Shown here piece by piece: positions 2,440-63,068 of a stretch of DNA of 64,000 nt. The DNA is taken from positions 8,308,001 to 8,372,000 of the forward strand of contig NZ_BJHV01000001.1 in assembly GCF_005405925.1 (NCBI RefSeq). Reading direction: 5' to 3'. The notes beneath the pieces were generated by a model. The model was not told where the DNA came from. It did not search any database and saw only the letters and a program-made list of their open reading frames with translations. How positions within the stretch are numbered: the first letter of the stretch is position 1; the number at the start of each line of letters is the position of its first letter. Position numbers and translations under genes: made by a program. The DNA is from Streptomyces antimycoticus. Its GTDB lineage: Bacteria > Actinomycetota > Actinomycetes > Streptomycetales > Streptomycetaceae.

Positions 2440-3414
2440 GTGACCATGAACACGCCCCCCGGCTGGTACCCCGATCCCGGCTACGCAGGTAACGGCCCCG
2501 CCATGGAACGGTGGTGGGACGGTTCCGCCTGGACCGAGTACACCCGCGATGCCTCGGGCGCCACGGACCCGGCCTTCGGCCCGCCGCCGATGCCGCCCTA
2601 CCTGCCAGGGCGGCAGGGCGGCCACGGCCGGGGCCGCGGTCCGAGGATCGCGGCGGTCGCGGCCGCCGCCGGTGTCGTGGTCGCCGCGATCGTCGGTGGC
2701 ATCGTGCTGCTGGGCGACGGCGGCGACGGCGGTGGTGGCAACGCCCAGACCGGGCCCGCCGCCCCCAGCGACTCCACTCCGCCGGACGGCGGCGACCCGG
2801 CTCCGGACCTCCCCGCCCCGGACAGCCCCTCGGACGGGCCCACCGGCGCTCCCACCGCACCGCCCAGCTACGACCCGGACACCGCCCCGGACCCCGGCAA
2901 CGGCATCAGCCTGCCGGTGCTCAGCGGCTGGCAGGCGGGGCGCAGCAGCTCCGGCGGCGCGGGCGTCACCACCTCCCGCTACCCCTGCCCGGGCGACCCG
3001 TCCACCGAATGTGTGCGCGGCGGCGCCTTCTCCCGGACCGCCCAGGGCTACAAGGCCACCTCCGCCAAGGGCATAGCCAAGGAGGACATCGCGCAGAACG
3101 CCGAGGAGTCCTACGGCACCGACGGGGACAGCGACCGTAAGGCGTACGGCGGGATCACCTCCCACAAGGAGCTGAAGGAGTCGGCGGTCGAGGTCGCGGG
3201 CGGCAAGGGCTATCTGGTCCGCTGGAAGGTGGTGACGAAGAAGGGCGACGACGGCATCGTCCAGTCGCTGGCCTTCCCGTCGCCCACCATGCCGAACACG
3301 ATGGTCGTGGTGCGCTTCGGGTTCGACCAGAGCGACAAGGCGCCGCCGCTCAGCGACATGGACAAGATCGTCAAGGGCATCGAGGCGCTGGCGGGCGACG
3401 GCCGGTCCATCTAG
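2440..3414 (+). CDS. DUF2510 domain membrane protein
   Basis: 324 aa from GTG 2440 (ATG at 2446 also possible). Residues about 5-35 form a DUF2510 module (PPGWYPDPG ... RWWDGSAWTEY), a short Trp/Gly-rich motif common on actinobacterial membrane proteins. A single transmembrane helix follows near residues 69-92, then a Pro/Asp/Ser-rich linker and a ~180-aa extracytoplasmic domain with two cysteines, of no family I recognise. The N-terminus is predicted cytoplasmic. The last codons lie inside a 20-bp tandem repeat that contains the stop codon. Function unknown. Confidence 0.8.
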   Translation: MTMNTPPGWYPDPGYAGNGPAMERWWDGSAWTEYTRDASGATDPAFGPPPMPPYLPGRQGGHGRGRGPRIAAVAAAAGVVVAAIVGGIVLLGDGGDGGGGNAQTGPAAPSDSTPPDGGDPAPDLPAPDSPSDGPTGAPTAPPSYDPDTAPDPGNGISLPVLSGWQAGRSSSGGAGVTTSRYPCPGDPSTECVRGGAFSRTAQGYKATSAKGIAKEDIAQNAEESYGTDGDSDRKAYGGITSHKELKESAVEVAGGKGYLVRWKVVTKKGDDGIVQSLAFPSPTMPNTMVVVRFGFDQSDKAPPLSDMDKIVKGIEALAGDGRSI

Positions 3415-3588
3415 GCGCTCGCCGGTCCATCTCGGCGCTCGCTGGTCCATCTCGGCGCGTCGCCGGTCCGGCCAGGCCGAAGTCGGCGGTCGGTTCAGGC
3501 GCGTTGCCGGTCCGGCCAGGCCGAAGTCGGCGTCGGTCCAGGCGCGTTGCCGGTCCGGCCAGGCCGAAGTCGGCGGTCCGTCCGGGCC
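3401..3588 (+). repeat. Two consecutive tandem repeats at the 3' end of the DUF2510 gene
   Basis: Three 20-bp units begin at 3401, 3421 and 3441 (unit gccggtccatctcggcgctc). The first contains the TAG stop of the DUF2510 gene; in the next two that triplet reads TCG. They pass directly into a second array with units starting at 3462, 3506 and 3549 (about 43-44 bp, sharing the gccggtcc opening). The array ends just before the convergent gene's stop at 3604. No terminator hairpin was recognised here. Confidence 0.9.
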
Positions 3589-3603
3589 AAAGGGGCCTGC
3601 GGG

Positions 3604-4800
3604 TCAGAGGAACGTTCTGCCCTCGCCCCGGTACGTCGGCGCGTCGGCCACCACCCGGTCGCCTTCGATCAGCCGCAGCGTGTCGAACCGCTCGCACAGC
3701 TCACCGGCCTTGGCGTGCCGGAACCAGACCTTGTCGCCGATCAGCAGATCGTCGGCGGCCGTGCCCAGCAGCGGGGTCTGCACCTCGCCCGGCCCCTCCA
3801 TCGAGTCGTACACCAGCCCCTCCGGCAGATACGGCACCGGCAGCCGGTCCCGGCCCGGCGCGCCCGACGCCGGATAGCCGCCGCCGAGCACCGTCACCAC
3901 GCCCACCCCGGGCCGGCGCACCACCGGCTGGGCGAACAGGGCCGCCGGGCGGCCGTGGAAGGAGGTGTAGTGATCGAAGAGGCGCGGCTGGTAGAGCCCG
4001 GACCCGGCGGCGATCTCGGTCACCGCGTCCTCCGCGGCGGTGTGCTGCACACTGCCCGTACCGCCGCCGTTGACGAACTCCAGGTCCGCCACCGCCCGCA
4101 CCGCCCGCACGACCGCGGCCCGGCGCGCCGCGAGCTCCCGGCGGGCCACGGACTGCATCAGCCGCACCGCGCGCGAGCGCAGCGGACTGCCCGGCACCGC
4201 GTCGCCCACGCCCGCGACATGCCCCTCGTACGCCATCAGCCCGACCAGCCGGAAGCCGGGGCGGCGGTCGATCGCCCGCGCCAGCTCGGCCAGTTGCTCG
4301 GGTTCGCGCAGCGGTGAGCGCAGCGCCCCGACCCGCACCCGCCCGCCGAGCATCCGCAGCGAGGTGTCCAACTCCAGGCAGACCCGGACCTCTTCGGTCC
4401 CGGCGCGAACGCTGTCGATCAGATCGAGCTGGGTGAGGTCGTCCACCATGACCGTCACGGCCTCGGCCAGCTTGGGGTCGCTGGTCAGGGTGGCGAAGCC
4501 GTCCCGATCGGTGGAGGGATAGGCGAGCAGGACGTCGTCGAACCCCTCGCGCGCCAGCCACAGCGACTCCGGCAGCGTGAAGCTCATGATCCCGGCGAAG
4601 CCGTCCCGTGCCAGCACCCGTTCCAACAGCGCCCGGCAGCGCACCGATTTGCTGGCGACGCGGATCGGTTTGCCTCCCGCCCGGTGGACCAGATCCCGGG
4701 CGTTGTCGTCGAAGGCTCCCAGGTCGACAATCGCCACGGGCGCTTCGAGATGGGCGGTGGCCCGGTCGTACCGGGCCCGGTCAGCGGCGGCAGCGGGCAT
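3604..4800 (-). CDS. PLP-dependent alanine-racemase-fold enzyme (amino acid deaminase/aldolase type)
   Basis: 398 aa if started at ATG 4800; ATG 4824 (8 aa longer) is equally possible and neither has a strong ribosome site. The N-terminal PLP barrel carries the motif PIRVASKSVRCRAL with the Schiff-base lysine, as in alanine racemase and D-threonine aldolase families. The C-terminal region has FVNGGGTGS, GSGLYQPRLFDHY and GDKVWFRHAKAGELCERF, with the conserved metal-site-like His/Cys residues of the D-threonine aldolase group. Probably acts on a D-amino or beta-hydroxy amino acid. Convergent with the DUF2510 gene. Confidence 0.75.
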   Translation of the reverse strand: MPAAAADRARYDRATAHLEAPVAIVDLGAFDDNARDLVHRAGGKPIRVASKSVRCRALLERVLARDGFAGIMSFTLPESLWLAREGFDDVLLAYPSTDRDGFATLTSDPKLAEAVTVMVDDLTQLDLIDSVRAGTEEVRVCLELDTSLRMLGGRVRVGALRSPLREPEQLAELARAIDRRPGFRLVGLMAYEGHVAGVGDAVPGSPLRSRAVRLMQSVARRELAARRAAVVRAVRAVADLEFVNGGGTGSVQHTAAEDAVTEIAAGSGLYQPRLFDHYTSFHGRPAALFAQPVVRRPGVGVVTVLGGGYPASGAPGRDRLPVPYLPEGLVYDSMEGPGEVQTPLLGTAADDLLIGDKVWFRHAKAGELCERFDTLRLIEGDRVVADAPTYRGEGRTFL

Positions 4801-5012
4801 GGACGCAGCTTGCCAGACCGCCATTACCACTGGGTAGAGGGCGGCCGGTGCGCAGGGCGCCCGGCTGCCCGTAGAGTGTCGCGCACGCCACGACCGGCAG
4901 GTCAGCGGCGTGTTGTCCGTATACGGGCCCGCCTGCCCGAAAGGCGGTGGGTGGTGCGGCGAACCGGACGGAGCCAGGTGAAACAGGTGTCGACGGCTGC
5001 GAGGGGGTGCAG

Positions 5013-6053
5013 GTGAGCACCGACGCGGAACAGGCGCACTCACCCCACAACACGCCCCCACCACGCCCCGCACATCCCCCGCGCACGGCGCCCGCGCAGC
5101 CTTCCGCGCCCCCGCCGCGCCCCACCGCCCCGCCCGGCTTCACCCCGGATCCGGACACCCCCATCCTCGGCGTACGGGCGAAGGTCCCGTTCCCCAGGGG
5201 CACCGCCGGGGCGTCCGGCACCCGGGTGCCCCCACGCCCCTTGGCACCGCCGCGCACCGAAGGGCTCTTCGCGGACGGCGGTCGGCGCGGCCGGCGCCGT
5301 CCGCCCAGCCGTACGGCGGCCGCCGCCGCCAGTCTCGTCCTCGGCCTCGGGCTGCTCGGCGGCGCGGCGGCCGGGAGCTGGCTGGGCGAGGACCCCGACG
5401 CCCCGCCGTCCACCGCCGACACCTACGCCCACGCCCGCTCCGCCTGGCACAGCGTCCCCGTGGACGACCTCTTCCCGCGCACCCTGCGGGGCAAGGGCGA
5501 GGGCCCCGGCGGCGCCGACCGCCTCTGGACCCGAATAGCCGTCGCCCCGGACAGCAGCTGCGGCGGCGGATTCGATCCGCTGCTCGCCAAGGCGCTGGCC
5601 CCGGTGGGCTGCAAGCGGCTGGTGCGCGCCACGTACACCGACGCCACCAGCACCAGCGTCACCACCGTCGGGTTGCTGGTCACCACCTCCGGGCCCACCG
5701 GGATGCGGGCACTGCACCAGCGCTTCATGACCGAGAAGCTGGACGAGCGCACCGATCTGATGCCCCGCGCGTACGCCGCCAAGGGCACCGCGGCGGCCGG
5801 GTTCGGCGACGACCAGCGCGCGAGCTGGCGAATCCGGATCCTCACCGACGCCCCCGTCGTCCTCTACACCGTCAGCGGCTTCGCCGACGGCCGTAAGGTC
5901 ACCGACCCGCAGTCGGCGGGCGAGGCGACCCAGCGGGGCGCCACCTCGGCCCCCGCGCAGTCGGGCCTCGGCAACGACGCCCGAAGCATCGCCGACGCGA
6001 TCGAGGCCATATTCCGCCGGGCCCTGTCCACCGTCACGGAGACCACGTCATGA
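5013..6053 (+). CDS. Proline-rich single-pass membrane protein paired with a mycosin
   Basis: 346 aa from GTG 5013, chosen for the purine-rich gaggggg 5 nt upstream and because the N-terminus is low-complexity Pro/Thr. Residues 1-100 are a Pro- and Arg-rich cytoplasmic tail, 101-122 one transmembrane helix, and the rest an extracytoplasmic domain with two cysteines (CGGGFDPLL and GCKRLV). The stop overlaps the start of the mycosin gene by 4 nt (ATGA), so the pair is co-translated. In actinobacteria such proteins accompany type VII secretion proteases; a specific role is inference. No other ESX gene is in the window. Confidence 0.7.
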   Translation: MSTDAEQAHSPHNTPPPRPAHPPRTAPAQPSAPPPRPTAPPGFTPDPDTPILGVRAKVPFPRGTAGASGTRVPPRPLAPPRTEGLFADGGRRGRRRPPSRTAAAAASLVLGLGLLGGAAAGSWLGEDPDAPPSTADTYAHARSAWHSVPVDDLFPRTLRGKGEGPGGADRLWTRIAVAPDSSCGGGFDPLLAKALAPVGCKRLVRATYTDATSTSVTTVGLLVTTSGPTGMRALHQRFMTEKLDERTDLMPRAYAAKGTAAAGFGDDQRASWRIRILTDAPVVLYTVSGFADGRKVTDPQSAGEATQRGATSAPAQSGLGNDARSIADAIEAIFRRALSTVTETTS

Positions 6054-7267
6054 GCGGGATCGGCCGGCGCCTCGCGGTGGCCCTCGCCGCCGCCGGGCTG
6101 ACCCTGGTGACCGCCGCACCCGCGGACGCCGACGGCATACAGGCCCAGGAGTGGGCGCTGGACACCCTCCACGTCCAGGAGGCATGGCAGACGACCAAGG
6201 GCTCCGGGGTCACCGTCGCCGTCCTCGACACCGGCGTCGACGACAGCCACCCCGACCTCGAAGGCCAAGTGCTGCCCGGTAGGGACCTCATCGGCTTCGG
6301 CGCCCGGCGCGGCGAACGCGCCTGGGCCCGCCACGGCACCGCTATGGCCGGGATCATCGCAGGTCACGGCCACGGCGCGGCCGGCGGCGAGGGTGTCCTG
6401 GGCGTCGCGCCGAAGGCGCGGATCCTGCCGGTACGGGTGATCCTCGAGGACTCCGACGCCGCCCGTAAGAAGGCCCGTTCGTCCCGTGGCGGCGCGCTCG
6501 CCGCCGGTATCCGCTGGGCCGCCGAACACGGCGCCGACGTCATCAACCTCTCGCTGGGCGACGACAGCGCCTCCGCCCACCCCGAGGCCGCCGAGGACGC
6601 CGCCGTGCAGTACGCGCTGCGCAAGGGCGTGGCCGTGGTCGCCTCCGCGGGCAACGGCGGTGAGAAGGGCGACCGGGTCTCCTACCCGGCCGCCTACCCC
6701 GGGGTGATCGCCGTGACCGCCGTGGACCGCTACGGCTCGCGCGCCGCCTTCTCCACCCGCCGCTGGTACGCCACCGTCTGCGCACCCGGCGTCGACGTGG
6801 TCATCGCCGACCCCGACAAGCGCTACTACGAGGGCTGGGGGACCAGCGCGGCCGCCGCCTTCGTCTCCGGCTCCGTCGCCCTCGTCCGCGCCGCCCACCC
6901 CGAGCTGAGCCCGCGCCAGATCCGGGAACTCCTCACCCGGACCGCCCAGGACGTCCCGGAGGGCGGCCACAGCGACGCCCTCGGCGCGGGCCTGGTGGAC
7001 CCGGCGGCGGCGATCGCCGCGGGCGGCAAGATGAAGCCGGAGGCCCAGCGGCCCGCCGTGGCCTCGTCCCCGGAGCGCTTCTTCGGCGACGGTCCCGGCC
7101 ACGCCCAGGGCGCGCACGACGAGTCCGGCCCCAACGAGATGGCGCTGCTCGCCGGAATCGTCGGCGCGGCCCTGGTGGTCGCCGCCGTCGCCCTATGGCG
7201 CGGCTCGGGCCCCCTACGGGTGCCACCGAGGCTGCGCGCTCTGCTCACGGGGATCCGCGCGCGCTGA
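6050..7267 (+). CDS. Mycosin-type subtilisin-like serine protease (S8)
   Basis: 405 aa. Signal peptide at residues 1-28, then a peptidase S8 domain with the full catalytic triad: Asp60 in VAVLDTGVD, His95 in RHGTAMAG, Ser266 in GTSAAAAFVSG. A transmembrane helix near 363-382 and a short basic tail anchor it, the layout of MycP proteases of type VII (ESX) systems, facing outward. It overlaps the upstream membrane-protein gene by 4 nt. Without the EccC/EccD/EsxAB genes here it is an orphan pair, so a secretion role is inferred only. Diverged copies of the gene's last ~38 bp recur downstream. Confidence 0.88.
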   Translation: MSGIGRRLAVALAAAGLTLVTAAPADADGIQAQEWALDTLHVQEAWQTTKGSGVTVAVLDTGVDDSHPDLEGQVLPGRDLIGFGARRGERAWARHGTAMAGIIAGHGHGAAGGEGVLGVAPKARILPVRVILEDSDAARKKARSSRGGALAAGIRWAAEHGADVINLSLGDDSASAHPEAAEDAAVQYALRKGVAVVASAGNGGEKGDRVSYPAAYPGVIAVTAVDRYGSRAAFSTRRWYATVCAPGVDVVIADPDKRYYEGWGTSAAAAFVSGSVALVRAAHPELSPRQIRELLTRTAQDVPEGGHSDALGAGLVDPAAAIAAGGKMKPEAQRPAVASSPERFFGDGPGHAQGAHDESGPNEMALLAGIVGAALVVAAVALWRGSGPLRVPPRLRALLTGIRAR

Positions 7268-7556
7268 GGCGCGTCCCCGCCGCGTCGTCGGCTCGGGCCC
7301 GGCGCTCATCGCGCTTGCGCGCGGTGCTCCTGGCGATCCGTACGGGCTGAGGCCGGGCGTTGCGTTGGCCTGGGTCGTGTCGGTACCGGGGTGGCCGGTT
7401 GGGGCCCGTTGTGGGCGCTGCTGGCGGGGTTCCGTGCGCTGAGCGGCCCCGGGCGCCGCGTCGTCGGCTCGAGCGCGCCGCGCGCATTGAGGCACCGCGA
7501 TGGTCGTGGGGTTGGGCGTGCTGTGTGGGCGCTCGCCGGGTTCCGTAGGGCGTCGG
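7232..7556 (+). repeat. Diverged copies of the mycosin 3' end; 335-bp geneless stretch
   Basis: Between 7268 and 7602 there is no credible gene. The terminal segment of the mycosin gene at 7232-7270 (encoding LRALLTGIRAR then TGA) is followed by similar segments at 7315-7353, 7409-7446 and 7521-7556. All share a gcgctgctggcgg-like core then tccgt, and the first two copies still end in CTGAG. The shorter motif cgtcgtcggctcg also recurs (about 7282 and 7463). The copies are degenerate, so the relation is judged by eye. Confidence 0.5.
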
Positions 7557-7602
7557 GCCGGGCCCCACGGTTGGAGTCGGCTGGGCCATTGCGGCGTGCC
7601 GC

Positions 7603-8367: not shown

Positions 8368-8428
8368 GCCGCCTCCCGCTCCGCCGCCCGCCGCGTCCGG
8401 TTCTCCCTGCCCTCGATACCCTCATGGC

Positions 8429-9163
8429 GTGGCGCTCAAGAACATTCCCGACCCTGGCTTCTCCGGCGACGACGGCTCCGCCGACCCCCGGCTGACCGCG
8501 GCGCTCGCCGCCTGGGCGGATGACCGCTCGGCCGAGCCCGAGGTGCTCGCCGCGCTCACCGGCGCCCGCCTCCTGGTCCCCGTGGTGGCGATCCTCGGCG
8601 AGGTCGAGGAGGGGCCCGAGGGGCTGCGCCGCGACAAGAGCAGCGACATGGCGGTGCCCACGCTGGAGGCCCCCGGCGGCCGGCGCGCCCTGCCCGCCTT
8701 CACCTCGCTCGAGACGCTGGCCCGTTGGCGCCCGGACGCCCGGCCCGTGGCCGTACCGCTGCGCCAGGCGCTGGAGGCCGCCGCCCATGAGAAGGCGGAC
8801 ACGCTGGTCCTGGACCTCGCGGGCCCGGTGCCGTACCAACTGACCGGCTCCGCGCTGCTGGCCCTCGCCGAGGGGCGGACCAGCGCCGATCCCCTCGCCG
8901 ACCCGGCCGTGACCGAGGCCGTGCGCACGGTACTGGCCGCCGAGCCGGAGGTGCTCCGGGCCCATCTGGCCCCGGCGGCGGACGCCGACGGGATGCTCGC
9001 ACTCTCCCTCGCGCCGGAGGCGCCCGCGCGGGAGACGGCGCACCGGGTGGCGGGCGCCCTGGCCGCCGACGAGGTGCTGCGGGCACGGCTGGTGCGCGGG
9101 CTGACCCTGGCGCTGCTGCCGCCGGACGCGAAGGTCCCCGGCGAACCGCTCTTCAGCCGCTGA
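8429..9163 (+). CDS. SseB family protein
   Basis: 244 aa from GTG 8429. Resembles SseB N-terminal domain proteins: a small alpha/beta unit at residues ~30-110 with ARLLVPVVAILGEVEEGPEGLRRDKSSDMAVPTLE and FTSLETLARWRPDARPVAV, then a helical C-terminus. Soluble, no signal. SseB-domain proteins are frequent in Streptomyces, often next to ESX-related genes; no biochemical role is established that I can assign. In S. coelicolor I recall such a gene just upstream of infC. Followed by a hairpin. Confidence 0.75.
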   Translation: MALKNIPDPGFSGDDGSADPRLTAALAAWADDRSAEPEVLAALTGARLLVPVVAILGEVEEGPEGLRRDKSSDMAVPTLEAPGGRRALPAFTSLETLARWRPDARPVAVPLRQALEAAAHEKADTLVLDLAGPVPYQLTGSALLALAEGRTSADPLADPAVTEAVRTVLAAEPEVLRAHLAPAADADGMLALSLAPEAPARETAHRVAGALAADEVLRARLVRGLTLALLPPDAKVPGEPLFSR

Positions 9164-9169
9164 GGGAGC

Positions 9170-9205
9170 AGGGCCCGGCCCGCTGCGAGGGCGGGGCCCG
9201 GCCCT
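9170..9205 (+). terminator. GC-rich hairpin after the SseB-family gene
   Basis: Seven bases after the stop, agggcccggcccgc and gcggggcccggccct form an imperfect stem with a short loop (one or two bulges). There is no T-run, as is usual for Streptomyces terminators. Separates the SseB gene from the aquaporin gene. Confidence 0.45.
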
Positions 9206-9292
9206 CCCCATTCGGACCAACAGGCGAATCGCCTCAATTCCCCCCACAATGCTTAGGCGACTGGCGGTCGGAATCTGCGTGAGGAGAGCGCC

Positions 9293-21372: not shown

Positions 21373-21790
21373 TGCGGTGGGCTGTTCCCCTATCCGCCCC
21401 TTCCCGCAGCGTCGATATGCGGCTCCGCCGCGTGGTGGGGCGCCGCCCCAGCTCCGGGGTCCGGGGCTGAGGTCCCTGGCAACGGGTACGGGTGGGCAGG
21501 CTGTTCCCCTACCCGCCCCTTCCCGCAGCGTCGATATGCCGCTCCGCCGCGCGGTGGGGCTTCGCCCCAGCCTGCGGGCTCCAGGGGTGAGGTCTCTGGC
21601 AACGGGTACGGGTGGGCAGGCTGCTTCCCTCCCCGTCCCTTCGCCAACCGGGGCTTCGCCCCAGTCCCCGGGGTCCAGGGGTGAGGTCCCCGACAACGGG
21701 CGCGGGTGGGGAGGCTGCTTCTCTCCCCGTCCCCTCCCCAACCGGGGCTTCGCCCCAGCCTGCGGGGTCCAGGGGCGGGGCCCCTGGTAT
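21373..21790 (+). repeat. Four-copy tandem repeat, unit about 94-120 bp; geneless 556-bp interval
   Basis: Units start near 21376, 21492, 21612 and 21706. Each runs gtgggcaggctgttcccc, a cccgccccttcccgc-like segment, a hairpin (cggggcttcgccccag or the longer ggctccgccgcg form), ggtccaggggtgaggt, and caacgggtacgg. Copies 1-2 carry the cgtcgatatgcggctccgcc variant; copies 3-4 carry the ccggggcttcgcc variant. Related elements lie at 33610-33760 and 47160-47200. I recall this family as widespread in Streptomyces intergenic regions. No gene between 21348 and 21903. Confidence 0.88.
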
Positions 21791-24355: not shown

Positions 24356-25144
24356 GTGCGACTGATCGCCGCTCCGATGTGGGAATTCGGTATCGACCAG
24401 GGAGTCCGGCAGTTCGCCGAGCTCGGCGTCGCGCTGGTGCTGTCCACCCTGATCGGGCTCGAGAGGGCGGTGCAGCAGAAGAGCGCCGGGCTGCGCACCC
24501 ACACCCTGGTGGGCGTGGGCAGCGCGCTGTTCATGCAGGTCTCCCAGTACGGCTTCACCGATGTGCTGTTGCGCGACCACGTCGGCCTGGACCCCTCACG
24601 GGTGGCGGCGCAGGTCGTCTCCGGTATCGGCTTCATCGGCGGTGGCCTGATCTTCGTCCGGCGCGATGCCGTCCACGGGCTGACCACCGCGGCGACCGTC
24701 TGGCTCACCTGTGCGGTGGGCATGGCCTGCGGCGGTGGTCTGGCCCTGCTGGCCACCGCGGTCACCGCGGTGCACTTCCTGGTGATCCGCGGCTATCCGC
24801 TGCTCACCCGTCGGCTGCCGGCCCTCTGGTCGTCCGAACGGGTGGAGTTGCAGCTGTCCTACCGGGTGGGCGCGGGGCTGCTGCCACGCGTCCTGGAGCT
24901 GTGTACGGCCGCCGGGTACCGGGTGCTGCGGGTCCGGGTGGACCGGGCGCCCTGGAAGGGCCGGGACCGCACCACCCGGATCGTCCGGGCCGAGGAGGAG
25001 GCCCGGCCCGCCGATACCGGCGTCGCCGAGGTGCAGCTCGCGCTCGAGGGCGCCGGGGACGTCCTCCGGCTGGTCGGGGCGATCTCCGAGCTGGACGGCG
25101 TCCTCGGCGCCGACGCGGGCCGCGACCTCGACGACGCGGAGTGA
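24356..25144 (+). CDS. MgtC/SapB family membrane protein
   Basis: 262 aa from GTG 24356, with gaaggga 6 nt upstream. Four to five N-terminal helices carry MgtC hallmarks: LIGLERAVQQKSAGLRTHTLVGVGSALFMQVS, GIGFIGGGLIFVRRDAVHGLTTAATVWLTCAVGMACG. The C-terminal ~110 residues form an ACT-like soluble domain (VELQLSYRVGAG ... LRLVGAISELDGVLG). MgtC proteins help growth in low Mg2+ and modulate ATP synthase in pathogens; the role in Streptomyces is not established. Stands alone. Confidence 0.88.
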   Translation: MRLIAAPMWEFGIDQGVRQFAELGVALVLSTLIGLERAVQQKSAGLRTHTLVGVGSALFMQVSQYGFTDVLLRDHVGLDPSRVAAQVVSGIGFIGGGLIFVRRDAVHGLTTAATVWLTCAVGMACGGGLALLATAVTAVHFLVIRGYPLLTRRLPALWSSERVELQLSYRVGAGLLPRVLELCTAAGYRVLRVRVDRAPWKGRDRTTRIVRAEEEARPADTGVAEVQLALEGAGDVLRLVGAISELDGVLGADAGRDLDDAE

Positions 25145-25185
25145 CGGCCTCGACGGCTCCGACTGACGATCTCGCGTTGACGAGG

Positions 25186-33897: not shown

Positions 33898-34470
33898 ATG
33901 ACGTTTCGGCTGACGCTGGTCGCCGCCGGTCGCAGCTCCTCCCGGCTGGGGGAGCGCTTCGGTGACGACCGGCCGCTGGATCCGGAGGGCCGGCTCGCCG
34001 CCGAGCGCGCGGCCCCCGCGCTCGTACCGCTGGCCGCGGCGGAGCTGCGCTACTGCTCGCCGTCGGCCCGCAGCCGGGAGACCGGCGATGCGCTGGGCTT
34101 CACCCCGCTGGTCCAACTCGCCCTGCGCGACTGCGACATGGGCCGCTGGGCGGGCCGCTCCCTCGCCGATGTGATGGCGCGCGAACCGGGCGAGGTGGAG
34201 GCCTGGCTCGGCGATCCGCGCTCGGTCCCGCACGGCGGGGAGTCGCTGCACGCGTTCATCATGCGGATCGGCGGCTGGCTGGACACGCGCCCGGCCGAGG
34301 ACCACGCCAAGATGGTGGCCGTCGCCGACCCCGGGGTGGTCCGCGCCGCCCTGATGTACGCGATCAAGGCGCCGCCGCACTGCTACTGGAACGTCGACAT
34401 ACGCCCGCTCTCCACGGTCACCCTCACCGGCCGGCCGGGCGAGTGGCGGCTGCGCGTGGACGGGGTGTGA
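33898..34470 (+). CDS. Histidine-phosphatase-fold protein lacking catalytic histidines
   Basis: 190 aa. Overall pattern of the phosphoglycerate-mutase/histidine-phosphatase superfamily: the N-terminal strand TLVAAGRSSS where RHG should be, LDPEGRLAAERAAPAL, YCSPSARSRETGDAL, and VADPGVVRAALMYA where the second His motif (usually SHGG) should be. Both catalytic His are absent, so it is probably a non-catalytic or binding protein. Similar degenerate members are, as I recall, frequent in Streptomyces. The stop lies in the first unit of a 24-bp triplication. Confidence 0.72.
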   Translation: MTFRLTLVAAGRSSSRLGERFGDDRPLDPEGRLAAERAAPALVPLAAAELRYCSPSARSRETGDALGFTPLVQLALRDCDMGRWAGRSLADVMAREPGEVEAWLGDPRSVPHGGESLHAFIMRIGGWLDTRPAEDHAKMVAVADPGVVRAALMYAIKAPPHCYWNVDIRPLSTVTLTGRPGEWRLRVDGV

Positions 34471-34524
34471 CGGCCGCGCGTGGACGGGGTGTGACGGCTG
34501 CGCGTGGACGGGGGTGTGACCGCA
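34452..34524 (+). repeat. 24-bp tandem repeat (3 copies) spanning the stop codon
   Basis: Units start at 34452, 34476 and 34500; each begins gcgcgtggacggggtgtgac (the third has one extra g). The TGA of the histidine-phosphatase gene is in unit 1, and TGA is retained in every copy. The array ends 5 nt before the convergent acetyltransferase stop (34529). Confidence 0.95.
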
Positions 34525-34528
34525 GCGC

Positions 34529-49408: not shown

Positions 49409-49410
49409 GC

Positions 49411-49495
49411 GCTGCTCAGGGGCGGCCCTGGCCGCTCAGGGGCCGTCTCGTACGCACGGCCCCGCCGCGTCCTATACGCACAGCTCCGCCGAATA
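49411..49495. repeat. Two back-to-back short repeats at convergent gene ends
   Basis: Units of exactly 20 bp at 49411-49430 and 49431-49450 (gctgctcaggggcggccctg, 15/20 alike) follow the DUF488 stop. Units of exactly 24 bp at 49448-49471 and 49472-49495 overlap the end of the apbE gene; its TAG stop (complement of 49472-49474) is in the second unit and is changed in the first. Confidence 0.75.
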
Positions 49496-50736: not shown

Positions 50737-50747
50737 GGCTTCCCCTC

Positions 50748-50867
50748 GGTCACAGCTCGAACGACTGGGTCACGGCTCGGATGTCTGGGTCACGGCGTGA
50801 ACGGCTCGGTCACGGCTCGGACGGCTCGGTCACGACTCGGACGTGGCGGTCACAGCTCGAAGGATTC
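50748..50867 (-). repeat. Six 20-bp tandem repeats across the ferric-reductase stop codon
   Basis: Units at exactly 20-bp steps (50748, 50768, 50788, 50808, 50828, 50848); typical + strand unit ggtcacggctcggacggctc. On the coding strand the unit at 50848-50867 holds the last codons and TGA of the reductase gene; every further copy keeps the TGA. The array fills the gap to the FMN-binding gene and ends 12 nt before its ATG, so it includes the ribosome-site region's upstream sequence. Confidence 0.95.
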
Positions 50868-52220: not shown

Positions 52221-52296
52221 GGCCTGTCCCCTTCCCTTGGGCTCCGGCGCAAGGGAATACGGCCGCGAGCGCGGGATGACTCAACGGCCGGTGGGA

Positions 52297-52356
52297 TTCA
52301 CAGGTTTCGGTCGGGGTTCACAGGTTCGGGCCCGGAATCACAGGTTCCGGGATTCA
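52297..52356 (-). repeat. 20-bp tandem repeats at the 3' end of the endonuclease/phosphatase gene
   Basis: Units at 52297-52316, 52317-52336 and 52337-52356 (+ strand ttcacaggttcgggcccgga). The gene's TGA (complement of 52354-52356) lies in the last unit; two further TGA copies are at 20-bp spacing and one at 16 bp. No terminator was recognised. Confidence 0.88.
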
Positions 52357-53215
52357 CCGGCGGTGGCGGCGTACGGGCATCTCCAGGTCGCTCACCACCG
52401 GCAGGTGGTCGGACGCCTCCGGGTCCGCCGTGACCACCTGGGCGGTGAGCGGGCGCAGGTCGCGGGAGGCGAGGTGGAAGTCGATCCGGGCGTGCGGGTT
52501 GAGGGCGTCGTAGGTGAAGCCGTCGCCGCTGCCGGCCCGCGGCCACACATCGTCGAGCGCGCCGGTCAGGATCCCGATCTCCGGGGTCTCTGGCGTGGCG
52601 TTCAGGTCACCGACCAGGACGGTGCGTTCGGGGGAGGACCCCAGGAGCTCGACGATCCGGGCGGCCTGCCGCTCGCGCTCCTTGTTGTCGTCGTGCTGCA
52701 GGATGCGTGACGGCGAAGTCGACGCGGCTGCCGCGCACATCCAGCGTGGCCTGGAGCAGACCGCGCTGCTCATGGCCGGGGACGAGCGGAAGATGGGTGT
52801 TGGTCCACGACCGGATCGGCCCGCGGGAGAGCGCCGCGGTGCCGTACTGACGGCGCGGCCGCCCGGGCTCCTCCGGGTCCAAGTCGAGGTTGGCGCCGAA
52901 GGCGTGATGCATCCCCAGCCGCTCGCCCAGCCAGGCGGGCTGGTCCACGAAGCCGCTGCGCTTCCAGAACCGGTCGACCTCCTGCAGGCCGACGACGTCC
53001 ACCCGCAGGTCCTGGATCACCCGGGCGACGCGTTCCAGGTCCAGTACGTCGGCGGGGCTCGCGCCGTGGTGGATGTTGAACGTGGCCACGCGCAGCCGTC
53101 GCGGACCCGGGGCGGCGGCCGCCACCCCGGACGTCCCGGCGGCGGCCGTGGCGCCGAGGCCGGCCGCCACGGCGAGGAATCGGCGTCGACTGGGGGCAGT
53201 ATTCAGGTGATTCAT
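52354..53215 (-). pseudogene. Tat-exported endonuclease/exonuclease/phosphatase family protein, frameshifted
   Basis: From ATG 53215. Twin-arginine signal (SRRRFLAVAAGLGATAAAGTSGVAAAAPG), then the EEP fold: RVATFNIHHG, VDVVGLQEVD (metal Glu), and YGTAALSRGPI in the first frame; TVLVGDLNATPETPEI (Asp/Asn catalytic), DFHLASRDL and SDHLPVVSDLEM (final His) in the second. Removing one base near 52703 (an A on + strand, where cacctg is expected on the coding strand but catcctg is read) joins VTH-LQHDDNKERERQAARI. Unlike the other frameshifts here this is an insertion outside a homopolymer. The restored protein is 286 aa with all active-site residues. Confidence 0.83.
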
Positions 53216-53325
53216 GGCGGTCAGCGTGCGTTCCGGTTCCGAACGTCGTCCCACGGCGCCATGAACGGCCCTGGGCGGGCGGGAGTCGTCGCCGCGTTCC
53301 ACCCGTCGGGGAACCGCGATCGATC

Positions 53326-53568
53326 TCAGCGACGGTCGAATTTGATCGGGTAGGACACCGTAGAGCGCGGTTTGGGTTGCTTCTTGGCGCCCTTCCCGTT
53401 CTTGGTGCCCTCCTCGTCGTCCTTCTTCTTCTCGAAGTGGACCGGGTACCGGGCCGTCTGATGCGGATTCGGCGACTTGCCGTCGCGGGTGTTGCCGTCA
53501 CCATGGTTGTTGATCACCATCACCCCCACCACGATCGCGCCGAGCACCATCATCTGCTTCTTCTCCAC
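53326..53568 (-). CDS. Small secreted or membrane-anchored basic protein
   Basis: 80 aa from GTG 53568 (a second start, ATG 53550, is possible). N-terminal hydrophobic segment (MMVLGAIVVGVMVI), then a charged Lys/Asp/Gly/Asn-rich region containing two similar motifs, ARYPVHFEKKK and VSYPIKFDRR. No family recognised. The duplicated [A/V]xYP[V/I][H/K]F motif suggests a short binding repeat. G+C is lower than in neighbours. Confidence 0.6.
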   Translation of the reverse strand: MEKKQMMVLGAIVVGVMVINNHGDGNTRDGKSPNPHQTARYPVHFEKKKDDEEGTKNGKGAKKQPKPRSTVSYPIKFDRR

Positions 53569-54523: not shown

Positions 54524-55720
54524 GTGACCGAGCGCGTCGTACTCGCCTACTCGGGCGGCTTGGACACGTCCGTCGCCATCGGCTGGATCGCCGAGGAGAC
54601 GGGCGCCGAGGTCGTCGCCGTCGCCGTGGACGTCGGCCAGGGCGGGGAGGACCTGGACGTCATCCGCAAGCGCGCGCTCGCCTGCGGGGCGGTCGAGGCG
54701 GAGGTCGCGGACGCGAAGGACGAGTTCGCCGAGGAGTACTGCCTTCCGGCGATCAAGGCCAACGCGCTGTACATGGACCGCTACCCGCTGGTGTCCGCGC
54801 TGTCCCGGCCCACGATCGTGAAGCACCTGGTCGCCGCCGCCCGTAAGCACGGCGCCGGGACCGTCGCCCACGGCTGCACCGGCAAGGGGAACGACCAGGT
54901 GCGGTTCGAGGCGGGCATCTCCTCCCTCGCACCCGATCTGACCTGCATCGCGCCCGTCCGGGACTACGCGATGACCCGGGACAGGGCGATCGCCTTCTGC
55001 GAGGCCAAGGGCCTGCCGATCGCGACCACCAAGAAGTCCCCGTACTCGATCGACCAGAACGTCTTCGGGCGGGCCGTGGAGACCGGCTTCCTGGAGGACA
55101 TCTGGAACGCGCCGATCGAGGACGTGTACGAGTACACCGCCGACCCGGCCACCCCGCGCGAGGCCGACGAGGTGATCATCACCTTCGACAAGGGTGTCCC
55201 CGTCGCGATCGACGGCGAGCCGGTCACCGTGCTGCAGGCCATCCAGCGGCTCAACGAGCGGGCGGGCGCCCAGGGCGTCGGCCGGATCGACATGGTCGAG
55301 GACCGGCTGGTGGGGATCAAGTCGCGGGAGGTCTACGAGGCGCCCGGCGCCATCGCGCTGATCACCGCCCACCAGGAACTGGAGGCCGTCACCGTCGAGC
55401 GCGAGCTGGCCCGCTACAAGCGGCAGGTCGAGCAGCGCTGGGGCGAGCTGGTCTACGACGGTCTGTGGTTCTCGCCGCTCAAGCGGGCGCTGGACGGCTT
55501 TATCGCCGAGGCGAACGAGCAGGTCTCCGGCGAGATCCGGATGACCCTGCACGGCGGCCGGGCCGTCGTCACCGGACGGAAGTCGCAGGCGTCGCTCTAC
55601 GACTTCAACCTGGCGACCTACGACTCCGGCGACACCTTCGACCAGTCGCTGTCCAAGGGCTTCATCGAGATCTTCGGGATGTCCAGCAAGATCGCCGCGA
55701 AGCGGGATCTGCAGCAGTAG
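54524..55720 (+). CDS. argG: Argininosuccinate synthase
   Basis: 398 aa. Joins citrulline and aspartate with ATP. N-type ATP pyrophosphatase motif [17 protein letters not shown] at residues 5-21, [15 protein letters not shown], and [24 protein letters not shown] 54524 with aaggagg 5 nt upstream. Followed by 19-bp repeats and a hairpin before argH (132-nt gap). In S. coelicolor I recall argG at a distant locus, so linkage to argH may be lineage-specific. Confidence 0.97.
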
Positions 55721-55722
55721 CC

Positions 55723-57283
<1,561 letters not shown>

Positions 57284-57318
57284 ACATCAGCTCATCAGGG
57301 AGAGGTGGGGACCAAGCC

Positions 57319-58308: not shown

Positions 58309-58335
58309 CGGATCGGGGCGGTTCGGGCCGCGGGG

Positions 58336-59142: not shown

Positions 59143-59384
59143 CGTGGTCACCCGCGGCACCATAGTGGCCGGGCCCGGTGGTGACCAGCGGGTAGCGGAA
59201 TCAGATCTTCCGCTCTCGATGCCGACGGACCAGGCCGACCGGAGCCGACAGCTCGCCGCGCCCGGCAGGTTGGCCGGAACGCCATGTGACGGCGGTTTGG
59301 CCGGAGCGCAGGCCGCGGATTCGCCCGAACGGGTGGGGTGGCGGCTCGCCGAGAGACACCTCCCCGGGCGGCCCACCGGAGGCG

Positions 59385-59459
59385 GAACCGCCGCAACCCG
59401 AACCGCCGCAACCTGAACCGTCGCGGACCGAACCGCCGCGGACCGAACCGCCGCCCGGC
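59385..59459. repeat. Five 15-bp tandem repeats in a 391-bp gap
   Basis: Units gaaccgccgcaaccc, gaaccgccgcaacct, gaaccgtcgcggacc, gaaccgccgcggacc and gaaccgccgcccggc at 15-bp steps from 59385. The interval 59143-59533 has no gene I can support; the array begins 75 bp beyond the acyltransferase stop. Confidence 0.95.
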
Positions 59460-59533
59460 CGCGGAACCTCGGCGCCCCCCGGCACACCACCGTGGCGGCC
59501 CGAACACCGGACCGCCGCGGTCAGCCCCAAACG

Positions 59534-60208
59534 TCAGGCGGCTGCCTTCGCCTTCGTGGCGTAGATGTCCACGTACTCCTGACCCGACAGCCGCATCACG
59601 TGGCTCATCACCTCGTCGGTCACGGCCCGCAGCACATAGCGGTCGCGGTCCATGCCCTCGTAGCGGGTGAACTCCAGCGGCTCTCCGAAGCGGACCTGCA
59701 CCCGGCCCGGCCGCGGCAGCCCCTTGCCGCCCGGCTGGATCCGGTCGGTCCCGATCATCGCGAACGGCACCACGGGCGCGCCGGTCATCAGCGCGAGGCG
59801 GGCGATACCGGTACGGCCGCGGTAGAGGCGGCCGTCGGGGGAGCGGGTGCCCTCCGGGTAGATGCCGAAGACCCGGCCCTCCTCCAGTACCCGGCGCCCC
59901 GTCATCAGCGCCGCGACGCCGCCGCGTCCACCGTCCCGGTCCACCGGGATCATGCCGACGCCGGTGAAGAACCAGGCCATCAGCCGGCCCTTGAGGCCCT
60001 TGCCCGTGACGTACTCGTCCTTGCCGATGAAGAAGACCTGACGGTCACAGACCAGCGGCAGGATCATCGAGTCGATGAAGGTGAGATGGTTTCCGGCGAG
60101 GATCACCGGGCCCGAGCCCGGAATGCCCTCGGCCCCCTCGACCCGTGGGCGGAACATCAGGCGCATCAGCGGACCGAGTACTGCCTTCAGAAACGCGAAT
60201 CGGGACAC
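59534..60208 (-). CDS. 1-acyl-sn-glycerol-3-phosphate acyltransferase (PlsC-like)
   Basis: 224 aa from GTG 60208. HX4D motif in ILAGNHLTFIDSMILPLV near residue 42, the substrate motif FGIYPEGTRSPDGRLYRGRTGIARLAL, and PVVPFAMIGTDRIQP. Membrane-associated enzyme of phospholipid synthesis. Next to a glycerophosphodiester phosphodiesterase on the other strand, a phospholipid synthesis/turnover neighbourhood. Confidence 0.92.
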   Translation of the reverse strand: MSRFAFLKAVLGPLMRLMFRPRVEGAEGIPGSGPVILAGNHLTFIDSMILPLVCDRQVFFIGKDEYVTGKGLKGRLMAWFFTGVGMIPVDRDGGRGGVAALMTGRRVLEEGRVFGIYPEGTRSPDGRLYRGRTGIARLALMTGAPVVPFAMIGTDRIQPGGKGLPRPGRVQVRFGEPLEFTRYEGMDRDRYVLRAVTDEVMSHVMRLSGQEYVDIYATKAKAAA

Positions 60209-60347
60209 GGGCCCTCCGGTCGGGGTCAAGGTCTGGGACGCACCGTTGTACGGTCCGTCAACCTCGTACCGCACCGGAGCGCCGATGAGGACGATACTCG
60301 CCGGTTGCGCCCCGGCGCACACCAGGTTCACCCACCTGGTACGCAGT

Positions 60348-60380
60348 GTTGACCCCCGTTTCCCCCGCGTTTCGTCCGAT
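60348..60380 (+). promoter_or_regulatory. PHO-box-like direct repeats upstream of the phosphodiesterase gene
   Basis: Three 11-bp units read GTTGACCCCCG, TTTCCCCCGCG and TTTCGTCCGAT, matching the direct-repeat architecture of PhoP sites (consensus GTTCACC with four less conserved bases). A further GTTCACCCACC occurs near 60326. I recall PhoP control of Streptomyces glpQ genes, which makes this plausible. Confidence 0.45.
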
Positions 60381-60469
60381 GTCTCCCGCGGGAAAGCCGC
60401 CCACGCCTACCATCAGCCCATCTTCTGACTGGATTTGACAGGTGTTGAACACCACATCAAGGAGTGCTG

Positions 60470-61639
60470 ATGGAGCGGGAGCAACAGCCCGGACGGCGCG
60501 CCCTCCTGGGGGCCGCGGCCCTCGGTGCGGGAGCGGTGGCGCTGAGCGGTGCGGGCACGGCGACGGCCGCGGGCACGCAGACGGCGCCGGGCGCGGCGGT
60601 CGCCGCGGAGACGTCCGGCCGGGGCCATGAGCTGCCGGTTCCCACCGTGATCGGCCACCGCGGCGCCAGCGGCTACCGGCCCGAGCACACCCTCGGCTCC
60701 TACCAGCTCGCCCTGGACATGGGCGCGGACATCGTCGAGCAGGACCTGGTCCCCACCAAGGACGGCCATCTGGTCTGCCGCCACGAGAACGACATCACGG
60801 CCACCACGGACGTCTCCGCGCACCCGGAGTTCGCCGACCGCAAGACCACCAAGACGGTCGACGGCACCAAGCTCACCGGCTGGTTCACCGAGGACTTCAC
60901 CCTCGCCGAGCTCAAGACGCTGCGCGCCAAGGAGCGCATCCCGGGCAACCGCCAGCGCAACACCCTCTACGACGGCCGCTGGGAGGTGCCCACCTTCGAA
61001 GAGGTGCTCCAGTGGGCCGAGCGCGAGGGCCGCAGGCGCGGTCGCCGCGTGTGGCTGTACGTGGAGACCAAGCACCCCACCTACTTCCGCAAGCTGGGCC
61101 TCGGCCTCGAGGAGCGGGTGGCCAAGCTGCTCCGCCGCTACGGCCGCCACCGCAAGGACTCGGCGCTGTTCCTCCAGTCGTTCGAGCCGAGCAGCATCCA
61201 GCGGCTGCGCAAGCTGGTGGACACCCCGGCCGTCGTGCTGCTGTCCACCATCGACAGCCGGCCCTGGGACTTCGTCGAGGCGAACGACCCGCGTACGGTC
61301 GCGGACCTGGTCAAGCCCGAGGGGCTCAAGTGGATCGCGAGCTACGCCCAGGGCATCGGCCCCGACCTGTCGGTCATCATCCCCCGGACGCCGGACGGCA
61401 AGCTGGGCACGCCGACCAGTGTGGTGAAGGACGCGCACGCGGCGGGGCTGATCCTGCACCCGTACACCATGCGCAACGAGAACACCTTCCTCCCGGCCGA
61501 CTTCCGTCGCGGCACCGACCCCAACGCCTACGGTGACGCTTTCGGGGCGTTCAAGGCATACTTCGCGACCGGAATTGACGGAATCTTCTCCGACAACGCG
61601 GACACCGCCCTCCTCGCGGCGGCGGACTTCCGCAAGTAG
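60470..61639 (+). CDS. glpQ: Secreted glycerophosphodiester phosphodiesterase (GlpQ-like)
   Basis: 389 aa from ATG 60470, with aaggag 5 nt upstream. Twin-arginine signal (GRRALLGAAALGAGAVALSGAGTATAA). GDPD barrel with VIGHRGASGYRPEHTLGSYQLALDMGADIVEQDLVPTKDGHLVCRHE (catalytic His and metal Glu/Asp) and FATGIDGIFSDNADTALLA at the end, as in periplasmic GlpQ rather than UgpQ. Releases glycerol-3-phosphate from glycerophosphodiesters or teichoic acids, supplying phosphate and carbon. Confidence 0.93.
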   Translation: MEREQQPGRRALLGAAALGAGAVALSGAGTATAAGTQTAPGAAVAAETSGRGHELPVPTVIGHRGASGYRPEHTLGSYQLALDMGADIVEQDLVPTKDGHLVCRHENDITATTDVSAHPEFADRKTTKTVDGTKLTGWFTEDFTLAELKTLRAKERIPGNRQRNTLYDGRWEVPTFEEVLQWAEREGRRRGRRVWLYVETKHPTYFRKLGLGLEERVAKLLRRYGRHRKDSALFLQSFEPSSIQRLRKLVDTPAVVLLSTIDSRPWDFVEANDPRTVADLVKPEGLKWIASYAQGIGPDLSVIIPRTPDGKLGTPTSVVKDAHAAGLILHPYTMRNENTFLPADFRRGTDPNAYGDAFGAFKAYFATGIDGIFSDNADTALLAAADFRK

Positions 61640-61661
61640 TTCCGCACGTACGGGTGGGTGA

Positions 61662-61699
61662 CGGCGGGGCCGCGCGAGCGTCAAGGCGCGGCCCCGCCG
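61662..61699 (+). terminator. Terminator of the phosphodiesterase gene
   Basis: Perfect 14-bp stem cggcggggccgcgc / gcgcggccccgccg with a 10-nt loop, 22 nt after the stop. Confidence 0.75.
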
Positions 61700-61767
61700 C
61701 TTCCCCGGTCGGGTGAGACCACCGTCACCCGGCAACCACCCCACGACCCGGCCTCGTCCCGCCCGGC

Positions 61768-62289
61768 ATGGACCTTGTGAAGCAACTGGGCCCGCTGCTG
61801 GCCGCCGAAGCGGCGGCCGAGGCATACGGCGTCGGCGTCGAGCCCGCCGAACTCGAACAGGCCGTCTGGCTACGGCTGCTGGAACGCACCCGGGACACCG
61901 GACCGCCGCCCCACCCCGCCCGCTGGCTGCGCTGTGCCGTACGGGCCGAGGTGCGCGGGGCCAGGCGCCGGGCGCGCCGCGAGGTGCCGTACGACCCGAT
62001 GGCCGGCGGCCCGCTCAGCGGCCCCGAGTCCCACCCGGCCGAACACGCCGTACTGACCGCGGAGACCCGCCGGACGCTGCGCGCGGCGGTGCGGCGGCTG
62101 CCCGGCCGCTGCCCCGCGCTGCTCGCGGCGATGCTCTCCCGCTCCGACCTCACGTACCGCGAGATCGCGCGCCAGTTGGGAATGTCACAGGGCAGTCTGG
62201 GCCCGGTACGTTCCCGATGTCTGGCTTGCCTGCGCAGAATGCTCACGGCGGAGGTTGCGGCTCCTGAACCTTGGGGAAAGGAGCGATAG
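61768..62289 (+). CDS. Sigma-70-like / ECF-type RNA polymerase sigma factor
   Basis: 173 aa. A short region-2-like segment (LEQAVWLRLLERTRDTGPPPHPARWLRCAVRAEVRGARRRARRE) and region 4 (LRAAVRRLPGRCPALLAAMLSRSDLTYREIARQLGMSQGSLGPVRSRCLACLRRML) with a clear HTH. No anti-sigma gene is adjacent. The reduced region 2 makes promoter melting uncertain, so a sigma-like regulator is also possible. Confidence 0.8.
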   Translation: MDLVKQLGPLLAAEAAAEAYGVGVEPAELEQAVWLRLLERTRDTGPPPHPARWLRCAVRAEVRGARRRARREVPYDPMAGGPLSGPESHPAEHAVLTAETRRTLRAAVRRLPGRCPALLAAMLSRSDLTYREIARQLGMSQGSLGPVRSRCLACLRRMLTAEVAAPEPWGKER

Positions 62290-62410
62290 ACAACCGGCGC
62301 CTCGGAGGCGGACGCCCACCATGCGGCGCCTCCACCCAGGCCATGAACCCCCGGTCGCACTCCTACCCTCACCGCGACCGGGGGACTGAGAATAGGGGAG
62401 GCATGCGCAC

Positions 62411-62914
62411 ATGGGCATGAGCGTGACCATCTCCGCGGCGACCGCGGACGACGCCGAGCAGATCCTGAAGCTGCAGTATCTGTGCTACCAGGGCGAGGCG
62501 GAGCTCTACGGCGACTACTCGATCGAACCGCTGACGCAGTCGCTCGACGACCTGCGCGCCGAACTGAGCGGGGGCTGCGTGCTCGTCGCCCGGCTCGGCG
62601 CGGAGGTCGTCGGCTCGGTCCGCGGAGTCGTCGACGACAAGGGGACCGCCGCCATCGGCAAGCTGATCGTCCACCCGCGGATGCAGCGGCACGGTCTGGG
62701 CGGACGGCTGCTCGCGGCCATCGAGGAGCGGCTGACCGAGGAGCGGGCCGCCAAGCGGTACCGGCTGTTCACCGGCCACCGCAGCGAGGGCAATCTGCGG
62801 CTGTACCGCCGCTACGGCTACGCCCAGGTGGGCACCGAGGAGGTCAACCGCCGGCTGAGCCTGGTGACCCTGGAGAAGGACGCCACGGCCGCCGCGTACG
62901 CCGCCAGCGCTTAG
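62411..62914 (+). CDS. GNAT acetyltransferase
   Basis: 167 aa (ATG 62411 or 62417). GNAT core AAIGKLIVHPRMQRHGLGGRLLAAIEERL with the acetyl-CoA loop RHGLGG, then RYRLFTGHRSEGNLRLYRRYGYAQVGTEE. Substrate unknown. Ends before a strong bidirectional hairpin. Confidence 0.87.
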   Translation: MGMSVTISAATADDAEQILKLQYLCYQGEAELYGDYSIEPLTQSLDDLRAELSGGCVLVARLGAEVVGSVRGVVDDKGTAAIGKLIVHPRMQRHGLGGRLLAAIEERLTEERAAKRYRLFTGHRSEGNLRLYRRYGYAQVGTEEVNRRLSLVTLEKDATAAAYAASA

Positions 62915-62927
62915 GCCGTGGCCTGAG

Positions 62928-62965
62928 GTCGCCGGCCGGGCTGGACTGCCAGCCCGGCCGGCGAC
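62928..62965. terminator. Bidirectional terminator hairpin
   Basis: Perfect 17-bp stem gtcgccggccgggctgg / ccagcccggccggcgac with a 4-nt actg loop, between the acetyltransferase and the convergent membrane-protein gene. Confidence 0.8.
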
Positions 62966-62996
62966 CGAGGGCCGGGCTCAGGGGCGGAGCCTCGGC

Positions 62997-63068
62997 GGGC
63001 CCGAGGCGTGGGTCGGGCCCGAGGCGTGGGCAGGCCCGAGGTGTCGGTCAGGCCCGCGACGTCGCATC
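62997..63068 (-). repeat. 18-bp tandem repeat (4 units) spanning a stop codon
   Basis: Units at 62997, 63015, 63033 and 63051 at exactly 18-bp steps (+ strand gggcccgaggcgtgggtc). The TGA of the membrane-protein gene (complement of 63048-63050) ends the third unit; the fourth unit encodes its last residues DATSRA. Confidence 0.92.

Follow-up and report, generated by a model that had tools for sequence, protein, structure and literature searches.

Short tandem arrays over stop codons in Streptomyces antimycoticus, probably locus-specific minisatellites tolerated at gene ends

Related repeat systems and the arrays of the window

Bacterial minisatellites, or variable-number tandem repeats (VNTRs), are the closest described relatives of the short arrays treated here, which lie on or just after stop codons in a stretch of DNA from Streptomyces antimycoticus. 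This stretch, called the window below, comprises 64,000 nucleotides (bases 8,308,001–8,372,000 of contig NZ_BJHV01000001.1, named C1 here, in RefSeq assembly GCF_005405925.1) of a genome of 11.17 Mb in three contigs (G000). As in VNTRs, units of 12–60 bp stand head to tail, each locus has its own unit and copy numbers differ by whole units: repeats within the VNTR range of roughly 10–60 bp occur beyond chance, and whole-unit variation was found between species at one locus followed in detail. What distinguishes the Streptomyces arrays from ordinary VNTR loci is their density at gene 3' ends: in the convergent spacers of two sampled blocks (B and C, described below) it reaches about 3 per kb, and with 1,053 genes predicted, 52 of 322 arrays lie over a stop. 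The MIRU and ETR loci of mycobacteria, tandem units in actinobacterial operon spacers that touch stop and start codons, resemble these arrays in position. MIRU belong to one dispersed family of homologous units, whereas no single dispersed unit is found in the Streptomyces arrays: 21 pairs among 184 arrays share a 13-mer, versus 16.2 ± 5.6 with shuffled units.

Other repeats are more distant. The tandem repeats of Borgs (PMC9879509) are perfect and built of A-enriched units. They share with the Streptomyces arrays a unit that is unique to its locus and taken from local sequence (local origin having been seen at one Streptomyces locus), but the latter are often diverged, 75% GC, not A-enriched and located on a bacterial chromosome. 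The TAACTGA heptamer repeats of Beggiatoaceae differ in being one fixed 7-bp word found mostly before start codons (PMC4679880). Unlike in a CRISPR array, the copies follow head to tail with no unique spacers between them. Among the matches listed in the open-licence PubMed Central literature, judged by title and the start of the abstract, no stop-spanning tandem repeats in Streptomyces were described.

Arrays were detected with Tandem Repeats Finder (TRF), run on the window, and with an ungapped self-match detector (periods 12–60, score at least 13). The features recorded in the window, with their strand and the evidence for each, are the following:

3401–3469, + strand: 20-bp array, 3.4 copies, over the stop (TAG, 3412–3414) of a DUF2510 gene; the stop is present in the first copy only and the array 5' end lies 14 nt before the stop end (TRF, self-match, Pfam)
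3454–3587, + strand: 44-bp array, 3.1 copies, adjoining the end of the 20-bp array, in the spacer toward a convergent gene (TRF; self-match period 43)
9157–9204, + strand: 23-bp array, 2.1 copies, over a predicted stop at 9161–9163; absent from the earlier list (TRF, self-match, gene call)
25123–25174, + strand: 22-bp array, 2.4 copies, over the stop of the predicted gene 24356–25144; absent from the earlier list (TRF only)
34443–34528, + strand: 24-bp array, 3.5 copies, over the stop (TGA, 34468–34470) of a histidine-phosphatase gene, reaching the convergent gene (TRF, self-match, Pfam)
49409–49471, no strand: convergent DUF488/apbE spacer of 63 nt, with no array passing (TRF, self-match)
50745–50861, − strand: 20-bp array, 5.8 copies, over the stop (TGA, 50852–50850) of a ferric reductase gene, reaching the next gene (TRF, self-match, Pfam, relatives)
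52289–52353, − strand: 20-bp array, 1.9 copies by TRF and more, diverged, by eye, just 3' of the stop of the open reading frame (ORF) 52354–52773 (TRF, self-match)
55724–55774, + strand: weak 19-bp array between the argG stop (55718–55720) and a hairpin-like stretch; the 19-bp period comes from the self-match detector alone (score 14), TRF giving a 9-bp row only (relatives by eye)
62994–63064, − strand: 18-bp array, 3.3–3.8 copies, over the stop (63050–63048) of a gene with no Pfam match, in a convergent spacer (TRF, self-match)

Six of the nine loci named in the original prediction were thus recovered at the period it gave (3401, 34443, 50745, 52293, 55724 and 62994), while the arrays claimed at 49411, 49448 and 7232 gave no row in TRF or in the self-match detector. 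The stop codon, said to be contained in most arrays, is inside four of the six (3401, 34443, 50745 and 62994), and the arrays at 55724 and 52293 start 3 and 6 nt downstream of it. A phasing near two helical turns had also been proposed. No helical ladder is visible by inspection in the periods of non-coding arrays, whose distribution is a broad hump at about 13–27 nt, peaking locally at 14, 18 and 21.

Enrichment and geometry at stop codons

Enrichment was measured in three 400-kb blocks picked by position (1.2 Mb, about one tenth of the genome): block A (G000:C1:2000001-2400000, loci L005–L024) belongs to a chromosome arm, and blocks B and C lie nearer the middle. Genes were called with a home-made Markov/GC3 finder, which predicted the 1,053 genes mentioned above; on an annotated 40-kb stretch of a Streptomyces plasmid, whose gene table is incomplete and from which one cut gene was excluded, it found 24 of the 29 complete annotated stops, with the same start in 17 of the 24. 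Blocks R1 and R2 served as additional, non-syntenic samples, and block S is orthologous to C and hence not independent of it.

The arrays are real and recur at gene ends. In the three blocks, 50 of the 322 arrays lay over a stop and 7 over a start (binomial P = 4e-9), with 2 over both, 121 within spacers and 142 within genes. The original prediction had named a lack of stop enrichment, or an assembly artefact, as grounds for dropping the observation, and the observation survived this check on a tenth of the genome. In spacers of up to 600 nt the density was 2.32 arrays per kb between convergent genes, 0.91 between co-directional genes and 0.35 between divergent genes, a 6.7-fold difference between the first and the last (P = 9e-12); convergent spacers alone gave 2.87 per kb in B and 3.16 in C. 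When only high-confidence genes were counted, the ratio of stop to start was 21:3 in B, 16:3 in C, 14:2 in R1 and 19:1 in S. The skew is weak in the arm block A (4 stop, 2 start), the three spacer types having 0.37, 0.41 and 0.45 arrays per kb. Whole blocks shuffled by a Markov-3 model gave 0.005–0.03 arrays per kb, or 2–4 per 400 kb, and shuffles of spacer DNA alone gave 0–0.10 per kb, or 0–1 per block (the value of 0.10 reflects a single array in 10 kb of spacer from the window), compared with 0.3–1.2 per kb in real non-coding or boundary DNA.

The reading frame leaves a clear mark on these arrays. The period was divisible by 3 in 139 of 145 arrays in coding DNA versus 78 of 177 in non-coding or boundary DNA. 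In B, C, R1, R2, G031, G013 and the window together, 85 of 92 stop-spanning arrays have their 5' end no more than one period away from the stop. When a duplication begins upstream of the stop by less than one period, the first copy retains the C terminus and the stop, and therefore the protein is unchanged. The period is a multiple of 3 in three of the seven exceptions, and the overshoot is at most 6 nt in six; the histidine-phosphatase array at 34443 is one of the seven, its 5' end lying 28 nt upstream, slightly over one period. In convergent spacers the 5' ends of arrays are spread almost evenly across the stop (3.06 per kb at −20 to −1, 2.91 at 0 to 19 and 2.93 at 20 to 39), and their density at −40 to −21 is 0.38 per kb, eight-fold below these bins.

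Tolerance of change around genes was assessed by pairing 271 of the 353 spacers of block C with a syntenic block of another genome, G189 (96% identity). Substitutions after stops fell from 8.8% through 6.4 and 5.3 to 3.3% in successive 50-nt bins, and to 3.1% beyond 200 nt, while before starts they stayed at 3.0–3.4% (3.0% at 0–50 nt). Indels of 10–150 nt within 60 nt of a boundary numbered 69 at stops and 9 at starts. These were split by a simple identity rule on pairwise alignments, which is noisy, into tandem (18 stop, 2 start) and non-tandem (51 and 7) events, with no difference in skew (Fisher P = 1) and no stop-specific excess of tandem events over other mid-sized indels in this comparison. 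Both kinds are equally skewed, so the arrays at stops appear to follow a general tolerance of mid-sized indels. Smaller indels were skewed toward stops 1.7-fold (1–2 nt) and 2.6-fold (3–9 nt).

Turnover among relatives and density across lineages

The ferric reductase array is the locus where relatives are most informative. The protein is 94–98% identical in S. niphimycinicus, rugosispiralis, violaceusniger, iranensis, endocoffeicus, antioxidans, samsunensis, sabulosicollis and hygroscopicus, by which we presume that the source belongs to the S. violaceusniger clade. Comparison collections hold one genome per species, so that copy-number variation was measured between species. Thirteen loci were tried and 11 had both anchors, niphimycinicus and S465 being without; nine relatives have at least 89% identity and both anchors, and outside them are S. 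milbemycinicus (79% identity, a 16-nt spacer of different sequence) and Actinacidiphila (a spurious right anchor). In seven of the nine relatives and in the window, the spacer to the next gene measures 16+20n nt, where n is 0 in rugosispiralis and iranensis (16 nt), 2 in violaceusniger and antioxidans (56 nt), 3 in samsunensis and sabulosicollis (76 nt), 4 in endocoffeicus (96 nt) and 5 in the window (116 nt). Only hygroscopicus (114 nt) and coffeae (33 nt) fall outside the series. The proposed comparison of copy number in close relatives thus revealed differences by whole 20-nt units. The unit consists of the last 12 coding bases, TGA and 5 further bases, and the last unit in antioxidans matches, by eye, exactly the 12 final coding bases of the window gene plus TGA plus 5, which bears out at this locus the claim that duplication began with the last codons and the stop. 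In endocoffeicus the TGA has been lost in two copies. The two species with no array sit beside array-bearing ones inside the sole well-supported set of the tree, the other forks being weaker.

Other spacers also change. The DUF488/apbE spacer carries an 18-bp array in endocoffeicus and a 17-bp array with a different unit in antioxidans, and no array in iranensis, rugosispiralis or sabulosicollis; for the other nine relatives an anchor could not be located, and the anchor failures of the follow-up comparison include G189, G079, G120 and G174. Among 156 paired 3'-type spacers, 39 of G000 and 40 of G189 contain an array, and 27 contain one in both, where 10 would be expected if they were independent. 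Under a same-period rule 73 arrays were private and 43 shared between these two genomes, shared arrays being counted once per genome and some rows lying in missed coding DNA.

The density of arrays differs widely between regions and lineages. Counting arrays with a period not a multiple of 3, which are mostly non-coding, per 100 kb, we obtained 12.5 in B, 10.5 in C, 12.5 in the window and 3.2 in A; 11.0 and 10.5 in G189, 7.5 in G120, 15 in G031, 15 in G013, 7.5 in G012 and 2.5 in G005. Loci (50 of 54, with L095, L132, L137 and L144 excluded) gave 13.3 for nine of the violaceusniger clade, 1.9 for 33 other Streptomyces loci, all of which surround one gene, and 5.0 for eight of other actinobacteria. 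One 50-kb plasmid stretch each yielded 8 in Streptomyces BHT-5-2, 8 in Arthrobacter, 0 in Rhodococcus and 0 in S. meliloti, and the count was 0 in 200 kb of E. coli and in the 40-kb Streptomyces plasmid stretch. Per kb of 3'-type spacer, A lies four-fold below B and C, and the clade differs five-fold from the other loci. Gene content, position and gene age are not separated in these comparisons, and most of the samples are small. An excess specific to the clade, which had been considered, is weakened by two other Streptomyces cores that are as dense, two more being sparse.

Explanations for the stop preference

We think that the arrays are probably locus-specific bacterial minisatellites, and that their preference for stops arises from a filter of tolerance and selection, with no recognition of the stop codon itself. 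Slipped-strand mispairing, often between pre-existing short direct repeats, would duplicate a segment of about 12–60 bp, as the junction overhangs suggest. When the segment starts less than one unit before a stop, the first copy still encodes the C terminus and the stop and the extra copies become 3' untranslated spacer, as the geometry shows and, at one locus, the relatives do. Later slippage or recombination between copies may add or remove whole units, as seen between species at the ferric reductase locus. Selection purges duplications within genes when their unit is not a multiple of 3, as the periods of coding arrays show, and would presumably also remove those before starts, where ribosome sites or promoters would shift, to judge from the conservation there. 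Stop codons would thus carry arrays because gene ends tolerate them. If so, a striking stop-containing geometry can follow from a simple tolerance rule for which a quantitative test is given here. The gene ends of the clade are densely supplied with possible typing markers, and in one gene pair the spacer differs by whole units among close species.

For the duplication step, an overhang (extra match past the unit) of at least 2 nt was found in 64 of 91 exact two-copy non-coding arrays, where 21% is expected in random sequence, and this excess points to slippage between short direct repeats. Direct evidence on the route is mixed. Fill-in end joining was rejected as a general route since the overhangs favour slippage, and it may account for some of the events with an overhang of 0 or 1 nt (7 of the 11 events with a readable counterpart, given below); all three contigs of the genome carry above-cut-off matches to the Ku end-joining family, six in total.

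Several observations weigh against the tolerance filter or strain it. Four of the seven exceptions to the one-period rule have a period not divisible by 3; in co-directional spacers the −20 to −1 bin holds about twice the next one (20 versus 9, P = 0.07); and a modest bump at −15 to −6, which the simple model does not call for, appears in the raw counts of seven sequence sets. The four- to five-fold differences in density between lineages and regions are not predicted by the filter alone. The array skew of 50:7 exceeds that of substitutions (2.9-fold) and of 1–9-nt indels, and is matched only by the indels of 10–150 nt. At distances above 60 nt, tandem events make up a larger part of the indels near starts (7 of 12) than of those near stops (7 of 25), some of this probably being missed coding DNA. 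The overhangs are inflated by remnants of a third copy, by shorter inner periods and by the counting of both orthologous blocks C and S; and in the 11 events with a readable single-copy counterpart (6 of them coding), the overhang was 8–16 nt in four and none or 1 nt in seven. Finally, pairs sharing a 10-mer are twice as frequent as with shuffled units (433 versus 211), an excess that comes partly from a GGGGCTCCGCCCC-type element present in a few of the 184 arrays.

The density differences and the co-directional excess at the stop leave room for a broader reading, in which some Streptomyces lineages have an elevated process of short tandem duplication, strongest in the chromosome core and at 3' ends, by which the ends of genes and the spacers of operons are continually rewritten and gene coupling is re-tuned. 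We regard this as rather unlikely and put it forward tentatively; if true, the ferric reductase spacer, ranging from 16 to 116 nt among close species, would exemplify such rewriting. The differences between lineages make the duplication mechanism testable. About equally doubtful, or slightly more so, is a mutational hotspot at gene 3' ends, where transcription ending, convergent-gene supercoiling or R-loops would make the replication fork slip at stops. It could account for the convergent spacers being densest, for the small excess at −20 to −1 in co-directional spacers and for the variation of density across regions and lineages, but non-tandem indels share the same skew between stops and starts, and in convergent spacers the density is flat across the stop and declines outward as substitution divergence does. 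The process aimed at gene ends that the original prediction had envisaged is therefore not needed.

A function in the 3' untranslated region, such as marking transcript ends, loading Rho or providing stops in all three frames, seems to us improbable, and it found no support. The copies of the window ferric reductase array do keep TGA, and a period of 20 bp places them in different frames. Yet the array is missing in two relatives and has lost TGA in two endocoffeicus copies, and multiples of 3 are not depleted among the periods of stop-spanning arrays (35 of 84). Strong hairpins are not enriched in arrays (coverage inside versus outside 0.180 versus 0.236 in convergent and 0.087 versus 0.092 in co-directional spacers), and the mean energy of the best 46-nt hairpin is −28.9 kcal/mol in 149 array-bearing spacers versus −28.0 in 330 with none, the former also being longer (144 versus 127 nt). 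GC content is 75% in arrays versus 72% in the same spacers, with no GC or strand skew of the arrays. A Rho or terminator role was rejected for lack of strand skew and of hairpin preference, as were intrinsic terminators and REP-like palindromes, since the arrays do not coincide with the strong hairpins of their spacers. Insertion of a dispersed mobile repeat at stop codons might explain the GGGGCTCCGCCCC-type element and the doubled 10-mer pairs, but it is largely refuted by the unrelated, locally derived units: 13-mer sharing stays near the shuffled value, and the ferric reductase unit is built from the last codons of its own gene. We give it very little credence. Least credible of all are assembly artefacts. 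Tandem repeats are known to cause errors in assembly, but the ferric reductase array is found, apart from the window, in six named species that were assembled separately, with different copy numbers and shared unit variants, and the arrays present in both G000 and G189 far outnumber the independent expectation.

No shared motif was accepted, the strongest 8-mer excess having a z of 3.9. A separate word, CCGTAAGG, is found 2.0 times per 10 kb of 3'-type spacer, against 0.56 times in divergent spacers and 0.89 times in coding DNA (A, B, C and R1), that is, 2.3-fold more commonly in 3'-type spacers than in coding DNA, with 26 matches in 18 spacers. A hairpin-like stretch such as that after the argG array (55775–55850) is also seen by eye in each of the 12 relatives inspected, from 29 loci tried. 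Near the array at 52289, on the − strand, an endonuclease/exonuclease/phosphatase gene (52354–53504) is seemingly split over two frames, with the Pfam match in ORF 52607–53302 and a coding-type GC pattern in 52354–52773, either a pseudogene or a sequencing frameshift. Elsewhere in the window, at 21380–21775, a GC-rich spacer element is present in imperfect direct repeats of 94 and 119 bp. In blocks B, C, R1, R2 and S the word ATGCGGCTNCGCCGC has 1–4 matches per 400 kb, 12 of the 14 being non-coding; the window has one and block A none.

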